From Nonomuraea indica (lineage in GTDB: Bacteria > Actinomycetota > Actinomycetes > Streptosporangiales > Streptosporangiaceae), in contig NZ_KZ559468.1 in NCBI RefSeq assembly GCF_002850745.1, forward strand, positions 1-64,000: 64,000 nucleotides of DNA, in the 5' to 3' direction. Below, one piece after another: positions 31,819 through 36,232 of this stretch. The position numbers and the translations under genes were made by a program. The notes under the pieces were generated by a model. That model was not told where the DNA came from. It was given only the letters and a program-made list of their open reading frames with translations, and did not search any database. Every line of letters begins with the position of its first letter. The first letter of the stretch is position 1.

Positions 31819-32553
31819 GTGAGAAACGTGGATGTGGCCGATTTCACCGGCGGGGGAGCTCCGCTGCTCGGAGAGCCGCCGCCCATCGAGCTGGCCAACA
31901 CCGCCCACGCGGTGCGCGGCCGCCGCCGGGACGGCCTGCTCACGACCGAGCACCTGGCCGCCTGGCTGCGGGACATGCGACCGCGCCTGGCGGTCCCGCT
32001 GACGGACGCGGACCTGCGCGGAGTGACCGACGACGATCTGGCGCGGGCCAGGGAGCTCCGCGACGCCGTCCGCAGCCTGGCCGCCGCCACGGCCACCCTC
32101 TGCGCCGCCCACGACGGCGACAGGGAGGCCGGGGGCGCCGGGGAAGACGGCGTCGCGGCCACCCGGACCACCGGCGCCGACCTCGCGGAGCCCAGGCCGG
32201 GCAGCCGGGCCACCCCGCCGACGCCCGGCCACCCGGTGCTCGACCCCCGGGCGGCCGAGACGCTGAACCGTCACGCGAGGCGCTCGCCGCGCTGGCGCGA
32301 GCTGCTCCTCGACCCCGAGCCGCACGCGGTGGTGCGCAGCGCGGACCGGCCCGTCGCCGCGGCTCTGGCGGCGCTCGCCGAGGAGGCGATCGACCTCTTC
32401 GCCGGACCCGTCCGGCACAAGCTGCGCGCCTGCCAGGGGCCGGGCTGCATCCTGCACTTCGTCCGCGAGTCCCCCCGGCGCGAATGGTGCTCGCCCGGCT
32501 GCGGCAACCGCGCCCGCGCCGCCCGCCACTACGCCAAGGTCCGCCGCCCCTGA
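31819..32553 (+). CDS. CGNR zinc-finger transcriptional regulator (ABATE domain)
   Basis: About 244 aa. Residues about 10-180 are the ABATE domain (LLGEPPPIELANTAHA near the start; LARARELRDAVRSLAAA). The C-terminal CGNR finger (about 195-240) has CQGPGCILHFV... RREWCSPGCGNRARAARHYAKVRR, with four zinc cysteines and the CGNR signature. The family are presumed stress or small-molecule responsive regulators. The start is unsure: GTG 31819 or TTG 31810, with no ribosome site, so possibly leaderless. Divergent from the VOC operon. Confidence 0.85.
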   Translation: MRNVDVADFTGGGAPLLGEPPPIELANTAHAVRGRRRDGLLTTEHLAAWLRDMRPRLAVPLTDADLRGVTDDDLARARELRDAVRSLAAATATLCAAHDGDREAGGAGEDGVAATRTTGADLAEPRPGSRATPPTPGHPVLDPRAAETLNRHARRSPRWRELLLDPEPHAVVRSADRPVAAALAALAEEAIDLFAGPVRHKLRACQGPGCILHFVRESPRREWCSPGCGNRARAARHYAKVRRP

Positions 32554-32560
32554 TCGACGA
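32477..32560 (+). repeat. Left copy of ~83-bp direct repeat flanking the xylanase island
   Basis: This end of the CGNR gene and the bases after its stop recur at 36150-36232 with about five differences. The copies bracket the GH62 and GH10 genes. The homology continues past the CGNR stop into TGATCGACGAC, which in the right copy is the start of mug. Confidence 0.85.
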
Positions 32561-32612
32561 CGCCGGCCGCGGCGGCACGAGGTGAGCTGCGCCAGGGCGG
32601 CCGGACAAGGCT

Positions 32613-32649
32613 CCGCGGGCACGGCGGATGCTCCGCGCCGTGCCCGCGG
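32613..32649. terminator. Bidirectional terminator
   Basis: CCGCGGGCACGGCG (32613-32626) and CGCCGTGCCCGCGG (32636-32649) form a perfect 14-bp stem with a 9-nt loop, between the convergent CGNR and GH62 genes. Confidence 0.75.
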
Positions 32650-32663
32650 CCCGTGTCACACCA

Positions 32664-34130
32664 TCAGCGCCGCAGGGTCAGCAGACCTGGCCGGTAGGGC
32701 AGGAGGCCGTAGTCGCCGCCGGAGCTGGGGCTGCGACCCTGGTAGAGCAGCTGCAGGTTGCAGGGGTCGACGGTCATGGTCTGATCGGCGCTGGTACGGA
32801 TCAGCTCACCGTGGCTGATGTCGTTGGTCCAGGTGGCGCCGCTGTTGGCCTTGCCGGCGAAGGGATTGCTCTCGGTCGCGGCCTGCGGGGTCCACGAACC
32901 GCTCAGACTGGTGGCCGTGAACGAGCGGAAGTAGCGGCCCTGTGAGCCGATCGCCTCGACGATCATCAGGTATCGGTTCTGGCCCTGGAGCTTGTAGACC
33001 TGGACGGCTTCGAACAGGTTGTTCGTCGTGTCACTCATGATCACCGTCGAGGTGCTGCCGAAACTGCCCGGGAAGTTCCCGATGGGCATGGCGGCCCGGT
33101 AGATCTTGCCGTTGTCGCCGGCGAAGAACAGGTACATGTTCGTGCCGTCACCGATGAGCGTCTGGTCGATGGGCCCCGTTCCGGAGCCTGAGATGCTTCC
33201 GGAGAAGAGCACCTGCGGCGATGACCAGCCGTTCGGATCCGCGGGGTTGCTGGAGGTCCGGTAGGAGAAGGCGGTCCCGCCCCACTGGTAGGCGAGCACC
33301 CAGATGTTCTTCGGAGCGAAGTGGAGGAGCGTGGGCGCGACAGTGGCGGAGGACATCGCGTTCTGGCCGGCCGAGGCCATGTCCGACCAGTTGGTGAAGG
33401 GGCTGAAATTCATCGAGCCCCACCGCGTGCCCGTGTCGTGTGTCGTGGCGTAGACGAGATGCCTGCCGTTGTAGGGGGCGACGGTGAAGTCCTTGAGGGA
33501 GACCCACCCCGCCTTCGGGGTCGCCAGCGGGCCCGTCGAGGTCCAGCGGTACGTCGAGGGCAGATCGCAGGTCCCGGGGTTGCCGCCGTCGACGCGGACG
33601 AGCCGCCACTGCTGGTTGGCGCCGCCCCAGTCGTCGTACTGGACGATGTTGGCGCCGTCGGCGGTGGAGGCGCCCTGGACCTCGACGGCCTTGTTGCTGT
33701 GGCGCGAGACGAACCTCACGTACCCGTCCGGGCTGTCGGCCAGCCGCCACTGCTGGTTGGTGCCGTTGAGATCGGCCCACTGGACGATCGCGCCGCCGTT
33801 GGCGGTCGAGAAGTTGTGGACGTCGAGCACCTTGCCGGAGTGGCGGGACCTGATGCGATAGAAGCCGCCGCCGGAGTCGACGAACTGCCACTGCTGCTGG
33901 TTCTGGTCGTTCCTGGCCCACTGGGTGATGCGGCCGCCGTCGGCCGTCGAGAGGTTGTAGACGTCCAGGGCCTTGCCGCTGTTGCGGTTGACGAGGACGT
34001 ACCAGGCGTTGGTGTCGACGGTGGCCGCGTGGGCGGGCCGGGTCTGATGGGCGACGAACAGGCTCGCCACCAGGGCGACCACCGCCGCGAGCACGGAGCT
34101 CCGACGTATCCGGTTTGGACGCGTTGTCAT
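32664..34130 (-). CDS. Secreted GH62 alpha-L-arabinofuranosidase with CBM13
   Basis: 488 aa. A Sec signal (about 1-36, ending AHA) is followed by a ricin-type CBM13 lectin (about 40-180) with three QxW repeats (NQQQWQF, NQQWRL, NQQWRL). A GH62 catalytic domain follows (about 190-485): [80 protein letters not shown]. It would remove arabinose side chains from xylan outside the cell. A LacI-type palindrome lies just upstream. It is codirectional with the GH10 gene behind it. Confidence 0.92.
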
Positions 34131-34313: not shown

Positions 34314-35768
34314 CTACGCGGTGCCCGGGTTGTAGTCCCACCTCTGGTTGCCGCCGCCCCAGCAGCCGTACAGCTGCAGCCCCGTGCCGTTGCCGGTGCC
34401 GCCGCCGACGGCGTCCAGGCACAGCCCGGACTGCACGCCCACGATCGTGCCGTCGGAGTTGAGGCGCCACTTCTGGTTGTCGCCGCCCCAGCACGAGTAG
34501 ATCTGGATCCTTGCGCCGTTGCCGGTGCCGCCGGCGTCCAGGCACTTGTCGCCGTACTTCAGCTCCCCGGCCGCGGTCCGGGTCCACCGCTGGTTGCTCT
34601 GACCGTTGCAGTCCCACAGCTGCACCGCGGTACCGTCGGCGGTCGCGGAGTTGGGCACGTCCACGCAGCGGCCGGAGGCCGTGTTCCTGATCTGTCCGGC
34701 GTCGCCCGGCGGCGGCGTCGTGCTGCCGCCGTTGAGCACGTCGAGCACCGCGGTGTAGGCGGCTTTCTTGTTGCCGTTGCCGTCGAAGAGCAGGGGAGTG
34801 GCGCCGGCGCCGAGCCAGGAGTCGCTGTCGCGAACCCCCCAGACCGAGATGCCGGTGCAGCGCGGCACCGCCAGGCAGTCGCGGACGACGTTGGCGTACG
34901 TGGTGGCCGAGCCGCCCTGGATGTCCAGCTCGGTGATCTGCACGTCGACCCCCAGCGCGGCGAAGCTCTGGATGGTCGTACGGTAGTTGCTGTTGTAGGG
35001 GCTGTTGGCGTTGAAGTGCGACTGCAGGCCGACGCAGTCGATCGGCACGCCGCGGGCCCTGAAGTCCCTGACCATGTTGTAGACGCCCTGGGTCTTGGCC
35101 CAGGTCCAGTTGTCGATGTTGTAGTCGTTGTAGCACAGCTTGGCGGCCGGGTCGGCGGCGCGCGCGGTGCGGAAGGCCACCTCGATCCAGTCGTTGCCGG
35201 TGCGCTGGAGGTTGGAGTCGCGCCGGCCGCCGGAGTTGCCGTCGGCGTAGGCCTCGTTGACCACGTCCCAGGCGTAGATCTTGCCCTTGTAGTGGCCCAT
35301 GACGCCGTTGATGTGGTTGATCATCGCCTGGCGCAGCGAGCTTCCCGACAGCGACTGCATCCAGCCCGGCTGCTGGTTGTGCCAGGCCAGGGTGTGCCCG
35401 CGCACCCGCTTGCCGTTCTGCACGGCCCAGTTGTAAACCCGGTCGCCGGCGGTGAAGGTGAACTGTCCCCGGTTGGGCTCGGTGGCGTCGATCTTCATCT
35501 CGTTCTCGGCCGTCACCATGTCGAACTCGCGACCGGCGATCGTGGTGTAGGCGGAGTCGCCGAGCTTGCCCGAGGCGATGGCGGTGCCGAAGTAGCGGCC
35601 GCTCTGCGCGGCGGCCGCGCCGAGCGTGCTCGCGGCGGCATCGGCCGGGATCGCCGGTGCCAGTGCCGTGATCAGGCCGAGCGCGCCGAGCACGCCGGTG
35701 ATCAGCGTACGGCGGCGCGCGCCGAGCGGCCGTCGGGCGGTAGGCGGGGACATGGCGTCGACACGCAT
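34314..35768 (-). CDS. Secreted GH10 endo-1,4-beta-xylanase with CBM13
   Basis: 484 aa from the ATG preceded by GGAGG. The long signal region (about 1-46) has twin arginines ([17 protein letters not shown]), so Tat export is possible. The GH10 barrel (about 48-345) has [13 protein letters not shown], the acid/base Glu in WDVVNEAY and the nucleophile in [10 protein letters not shown] Pro linker leads to a CBM13 lectin (about 360-484) with three QxW repeats. It cleaves the xylan backbone and would act with the neighbouring GH62 enzyme. GAAA/TTTC boxes lie upstream. Confidence 0.95.
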
Positions 35769-35898
35769 GCTTGAGCCTCCTGTGCGGATCATGGGGAAAG
35801 GACGGGGCGGGACACCCCCCGGACGCTGCACCGGTCGCGCGGGGCCCACCGGGGCCGGTGGAGGAGTTCGCCTCGGGCACTCAGTGTGAGAAGCCGGT

Positions 35899-36035
35899 CG
35901 AAACATGTCAAGAAATGCTGAAATGTTTCGAAATGGGGTTGGGTTACCTGCGCCAGTTGAGTCGCTTGACGTGGCTATTACGGCCTTTGAAACTTTCGGC
36001 TGAACCGCCGGGACGGGTTCCGGGTGAAAGTTTCA
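35899..36035. promoter_or_regulatory. Xylanase-type GAAA/TTTC operator boxes
   Basis: Two inverted repeats lie upstream of the GH10 gene: CGAAACAT (35899-35906) with ATGTTTCG (35923-35930), and TGAAACTTTC (35988-35997) with GAAAGTTTCA (36026-36035). GAAA-N-TTTC-type palindromes are known upstream of Streptomyces xylanase genes as control sites. The region 35769-36150 is otherwise without a gene. Confidence 0.6.
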
Positions 36036-36149
36036 TGGTGACGCTCTCGCGTATCGGTCGCGTTCGATGGTCTGAGGCGGGCGCGCCAGGGTGTGCGGCG
36101 CGGGGGCCCTCCTCGTGCCGGCCGGCCCGCCCGAGGAGGGTAAGATTCG

Positions 36150-36232
36150 GGCGCGAATGGCGCCCGCCCGGCTGCGGCGACCGCGCCCGCGCCGCCCGCC
36201 ACTACGCCAAGGTCCGCCGCCATGATCGACGA
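36150..36232 (+). repeat. Right copy of ~83-bp direct repeat
   Basis: Near copy of 32477-32560 (about five differences including a 1-bp deletion). It contains the last codons of a CGNR gene fused directly to the start of mug. Confidence 0.85.
36154..36221 (+). pseudogene. C-terminal remnant of a CGNR regulator gene
   Basis: The frame reads EWRPPGCGDRARAARHYAKVRR, the end of the CGNR finger with two changes (the first zinc Cys to Arg, and CGNR to CGDR). No upstream part of a CGNR gene is present. It is a by-product of the duplication that flanks the xylanase island and runs straight into the mug start codon. Confidence 0.75.

Follow-up and report, generated by a model that had tools for sequence, protein, structure and literature searches.

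A GH62-GH10 gene pair lies between two copies of a CGNR-mug junction in Nonomuraea indica

In the soil actinomycete Nonomuraea indica, the genes for two xylan-digesting enzymes, a GH62 arabinofuranosidase and a GH10 xylanase, lie between two directly repeated copies of a sequence that spans the end of a CGNR zinc-finger/ABATE regulator gene and the start of mug, an unrelated gene of the uracil-DNA-glycosylase superfamily. We analysed this locus within a window comprising positions 1-64,000 (forward strand) of contig NZ_KZ559468.1, assembly GCF_002850745.1, to which the coordinates refer; genomes of relatives are designated by G-numbers. The history that we favour, and consider reasonably probable, has three steps, in the last of which the enzyme block was captured during the repair of a chromosomal break. 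One relative, G013, keeps a remnant of the earlier junction, from which the succession of events and the side that was copied can be deduced; both the order and the direction of copying are well supported, and the mechanism is what we infer. The event is of a type already known, here in readable form, and not a new system. It provides a polarised natural example of an actinomycete gaining a pair of enzyme genes with no recognisable mobile element and with neither neighbouring gene broken, and the locus may be useful as a test case for how genes are gained when no transposase is involved. Literature searches found no paper title concerning the CGNR/GH62-GH10/mug locus.

A repeat search of the window grouped the two copies as family D5 (72 nt, 96% identity, spacing 3673), and in a BLAST search of the own genome positions 32470-32570 matched 36150-36234 with 94% identity over 85 bases (E 6e-31, whole genome), which is far beyond chance. 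Gapped alignment placed the left copy at 32477-32561 (85 bp) and the right copy at 36150-36233 (84 bp), both on the forward strand, with four substitutions and one deleted base between them; one further shared G can be assigned to either side. The left copy consists of the native 3' end of the intact CGNR gene (31810-32553, forward strand; Pfam PF11706 and PF07336) plus 11 nt of the mug start, ending in TGATCGACGAC. The right copy contains 72 nt (24 codons) of decayed CGNR, in which the CGNR motif has become CGDR, joined to the start of an intact mug gene (36222-36722, forward strand; PF03167), whose product is 91% identical to that of G048. Approximately 3.59 kb separate the copies and hold, both on the reverse strand, the CBM13-GH62 arabinofuranosidase gene (32664-34130; PF03664 and PF14200) and the GH10-CBM13 xylanase gene (34314-35768; PF00331 and PF00652 on 34317-35756). 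The GH10 start at 35768 is our choice, and the open frame continues to an ATG at 35906; by Pfam, GH10 carries ricin-type lectin domains together with Glyco_hydro_10, and Glyco_hydro_62 is also named. The same host sequence is thus directly repeated at both edges of the island, as in a target duplication. The initial annotation, made from the letters of this DNA, had recognised a junction sequence of about 83 bp on both sides of the enzyme genes, with a mug-start remnant on the left; this is borne out, with its "about five differences" resolved into four substitutions and one deleted base, and its 22 codons of CGNR on the right corrected to 24.

The former contiguity of CGNR and mug is shown by G013, the closest relative as judged by CGNR and MFS identity. 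Its locus (L107) contains the MFS, DUF1348, PNPOx, VOC and CGNR genes in the window's order, and the CGNR stop codon is immediately followed by approximately 72 bp of degenerate mug 5' sequence. The alignment of this remnant to mug scored 53, as compared with a maximum of 28.5 in 500 shuffles, and in a control with 50 other loci, a few of which represent the same organism twice, the best mug score was 29 in the 200 bp after CGNR and 32 in 1500 bp. There was no mug match elsewhere in the G013 genome. Because the remnant directly follows CGNR, the two genes were genuinely adjacent in the ancestor that G013 and the window genome share; on the evidence of this one relative, the flanks of the island were contiguous before the insertion. 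Beyond the remnant, at 4836-8505 of L107, genes for a KdpD-like kinase and a response regulator replace the downstream genes of the window, and therefore the same junction has been rearranged in both lineages.

The adjacency of CGNR and mug was, however, not the original arrangement. In a survey of the genus, 37 of 54 genomes had a match to mug, the own genome included and two of the matches being weak, and mug loci were examined in 29 relatives, five further genomes with strong matches being without a fetched locus. In all 29, mug lies downstream of the MFS gene on the same strand, at a distance of 12-1673 bp (187 bp or less in 23); the order was seen in short loci for 27 of them and in longer stretches for G021 and G043. 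In the window, the MFS sugar transporter gene (28213-29613, forward strand; Pfam Sugar_tr) is followed by the DUF1348, PNPOx-like and VOC genes (29652-31727, reverse strand; Pfam), which together with CGNR represent an older insertion, shared with G013. The CGNR-mug junction itself is thus young, because it came into being only when this four-gene module separated mug from MFS. An intact CGNR-mug pair was found neither in 51 CGNR loci, which were without a mug match, nor in the 29 mug loci, which were without an adjoining CGNR; the CGNR loci comprised 29 fetched with 1.5 kb flanks, from a survey in which 63 other genomes matched the CGNR protein, and a second set of 22 named loci with up to 8 kb. 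The proposal that the two genes were once neighbours, for which relatives with CGNR directly followed by mug had been suggested as a check, is thus upheld through the G013 remnant, with the amendment that the adjacency had itself been created by an earlier insertion, which parted MFS from mug, and that no intact pair occurs in the loci examined. Separately, a second, partial copy of mug, corresponding to its C-terminal part and 73-78% identical, is present in G048, G021 and G026 (L108, L109 and L110), approximately 1.1, 8.4 and 8.7 kb, respectively, beyond the intact gene.

To polarise the two copies, we compared them with G013 and with 18 other relatives from the genus. Three of the substitutions fall within the first 70 bases, the CGNR part, and at each of them the left copy has the base found in 18/18 relatives and in G013, so that the right copy is derived at all three sites; these changes put Arg in place of a Cys, Pro in place of a Ser, and Asp in place of the Asn in the CGNR motif. 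Likewise, CCCCTGATCGAC is common to the left copy and G013, whereas the right copy has CCATGATCGAC. At three other sites the left and right copies agree with each other against G013. One of these is uninformative, and at the other two both copies have C versus G in G013, with G in 13/18 and 14/18 of the relatives and C in four and two, respectively; the C at these two sites most likely arose in the window lineage before the copying. Since the right copy has window-lineage bases in common with the left copy, against G013, the copying postdates the split from G013. Together, the aligned bases show the right copy to be the secondary one, made in the window lineage after that split. Fourfold-site differences between the window and G013 range from 0.09 to 0.22 per gene over five genes; four substitutions in approximately 84 bp fit a duplication younger than the split, a count too small to provide a date. 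Measuring the divergence of the copies, as the initial annotation had advised, thus gave both a number of differences and a direction.

From these comparisons, we propose the following history. Before G013 and the window genome diverged, a DUF1348-PNPOx-VOC-CGNR module entered the usual MFS-mug arrangement of the genus, with the CGNR stop codon TGA coinciding with a TGA inside the mug start (gTGATCGACGAC). G013 later lost mug except for its decaying 5' end. In the window lineage, the GH62-GH10 pair entered the junction, leaving approximately 84 bp of local sequence on both sides; in this third step, non-homologous repair of a double-strand break (or a stalled fork) would have taken in the enzyme block as filler and would have re-copied, or filled in, approximately 84 bp of local DNA. 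The left copy would have stayed under coding constraint as the end of CGNR, and the right copy would have decayed as CGNR while supplying the context for the mug start. We favour break repair because no transposase family is listed for the gene-like frames scanned in the window, the ends of the block do not belong to a repeated family, Ku is encoded in the own genome (G000:C9:312222-312764, E 6e-57), and there is a precedent in Streptomyces ambofaciens, where five insertions of own DNA, from 30 bp to 18.8 kb, were located at healed breaks, two of them being pieces of 42 and 83 bp that derived from nearby sequence (PMC5869714). As there, the chromosome is actinobacterial, and Ku is present here. 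The captures described there arose from an induced break and left fresh scars (PMC5869714), whereas the joints here are old and have no readable overhang or microhomology; also unlike those captures, the block and a local copy occur together.

Several observations speak against this proposal. A single ambiguous base is all the microhomology that was seen at the left joint, none was seen at the right joint, and there is no direct trace of repair. No genome with an intact CGNR-mug pair was found, and the empty site is read from one remnant, that of G013. A length of 84 bp is also long for a simple fill-in of ends, and the two joints are equally what would be expected from integration by a single crossover or from a duplication followed by a deletion. 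The claim that the block entered with target duplication thus stands as a description of the outcome, given the repeats, the former contiguity and the polarity, whereas the way in which the duplication was made is what we infer.

An unlikely alternative to break repair is that the incoming block was already attached to a CGNR-mug junction from this very lineage, either on a circle that integrated by a single crossover or on a linear fragment subjected to homology-facilitated illegitimate recombination, for either of which the 84 bp could act as a short anchor. The block would in that case have to come on DNA in which GH62-GH10 was pre-joined to this lineage's junction, and of the 24 records from a plasmid collection that match window positions 32400-36300, none covers 80% in one place. 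In Escherichia coli, most clones first taken as illegitimate were lacZ duplications, for which the report gave a single crossover as the explanation (PMC3240628). Homology-facilitated illegitimate recombination, as described in two reports, likewise places new genes next to a resident one with no transposase involved, but the incoming DNA must carry a homologous anchor and host DNA is generally lost (PMC3240628, PMC5361080).

The two observed joints would also suffice for a two-step origin, by a tandem duplication from inside CGNR to a point beside the GH block followed by deletion of the first mug copy except for 11 nt. Duplications and deletions are common in bacteria, but this route requires that GH62-GH10 lay near mug beforehand, and in seven genomes with both on the same contig (G009, G023, G026, G039, G049, G050 and G051) the best listed mug and GH62 matches are 1.5-6.4 Mb apart, so that we hold it to be improbable.

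Hardly probable, finally, is the remnant of a mobile element that lost its enzyme gene, either an integrase element with att sites at the CGNR 3' end or a transposon whose target duplication was unusually long: integrative elements whose att site is at the 3' end of a gene leave that end directly repeated on both sides and the gene intact, which is the classical pattern and is seen here, there is weak inverted similarity near the two inner edges (11/1000 shuffles were as good), and a prophage-like stretch with an integrase gene (16136-17323) is in the same window, but the island, of 3.6 kb only, codes only for GH62 and GH10 with no integrase inside, the repeat runs into the start of the neighbouring gene, the integrase gene of the window lies at a distance of 15 kb, bordering the element to which it belongs, the inverted similarity does not coincide with the island termini, no further strong copy of the block ends occurs in the own genome (only one weak 39-bp match), both other own-genome matches of the repeat lie inside CGNR-family matches, and the right copy has window-lineage bases, which an element would have had to acquire here. 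The family scan of the window, which covered 53 gene-like frames and a response regulator with a lower limit of 110 amino acids, listed no transposase family, in agreement with the earlier remark that none was visible.

The block may have come from a different species or from elsewhere in the own genome. Matches to its DNA occur in 54/54 genus genomes, some of them weak or restricted to the lectin domains, and GH62 proteins with 85-91% identity are encoded in many of these; the suggestion to look for the block elsewhere was thus productive, as both genes are found at other places in many genomes of the genus. In G017, GH62 and GH10 are adjacent as in the window, in another genomic place and with a LacI-type gene beyond GH62, and in G048 a GH43 gene sits between GH10 and GH62; this GH43 has no close relative in the window genome, where its GH43 part matches at 35% at best. 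The protein search, which in G013 was done with GH62 only, found no GH62 gene there (one match at 3e-4), and that genome has three weaker DNA matches to the block (best 5.5e-42). Similarity to relatives reaches approximately position 36091 upstream of GH10 and, beyond GH62, approximately 32650 (32614 in G009). The LacI and WYL regulators of the enzyme clusters have only distant matches in the window genome.

A recent transfer of the block was considered and is not supported. Fourfold-site differences from G048 and G026 are 0.13-0.19 for GH62 and GH10 versus 0.30-0.47 for MFS, mug, CGNR and VOC, but GH62 and GH10 are slow-evolving also when other genomes of the genus are compared with each other (medians 0.211 and 0.156, respectively), so that their low divergence is for the most part typical of the genus and cannot be taken as a firm sign that the transfer was recent. 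The GH62/MFS ratio of fourfold differences has a median of 0.47 in 12 pairs that include the window, as compared with 0.63 in 66 other pairs, a mild signal compatible with transfer that gives neither a source nor a date.

The duplication also altered the start of mug. In all 28 relatives inspected, mug starts with GTG; at the corresponding position CTG is present in the left copy and in G013, and this CTG shares its reading frame with an ATG within CGNR. In the right copy, one base was lost and an ATG gained, and a 22-codon open reading frame (36157-36225, forward strand) terminates at a TGA overlapping the start codon of mug (ATGA); this frame is possibly a coupled leader of mug. It is conceivable, if doubtful, that the first insertion gave mug a weak CTG start, perhaps read as part of a frame that starts inside CGNR, that G013 then lost mug, and that in the window lineage the duplicated junction brought an ATG and a 22-codon leader, the insertion thereby rescuing a DNA-repair gene.

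Other features were noted within and around the island. Between CGNR and GH62 there is a strong terminator-like hairpin (32613-32649), the fold of 32600-32660 having a z score of -4.85 with 0/200 shuffles as stable; the segment 36095-36149, which includes the right-hand hairpin, was no stabler than shuffles (z score 0.50). An imperfect palindrome, GAAACTTTC...GAAAGTTTC, was read upstream of GH10 (35989-36034); it is also present upstream of GH10 in G017, and is perhaps a regulator site. The prophage-like stretch (871-17326) encodes a terminase, a DnaB-like helicase, ParB, a recombination-directionality-factor-like protein and proteins with Cro/C1-type helix-turn-helix and phage-integrase domains; no transfer RNA was found in the window. 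Genes for a Pnkp-type kinase-phosphatase-ligase and a Hen1-type methyltransferase, a bacterial RNA-repair pair, occupy 18943-22984. Beyond mug, positions 37023-40436 encode a large protein with thermolysin-type M4, M28 peptidase and P-domain regions, and 52756-53088 contains a gene of a PemK/MazF-like toxin family.

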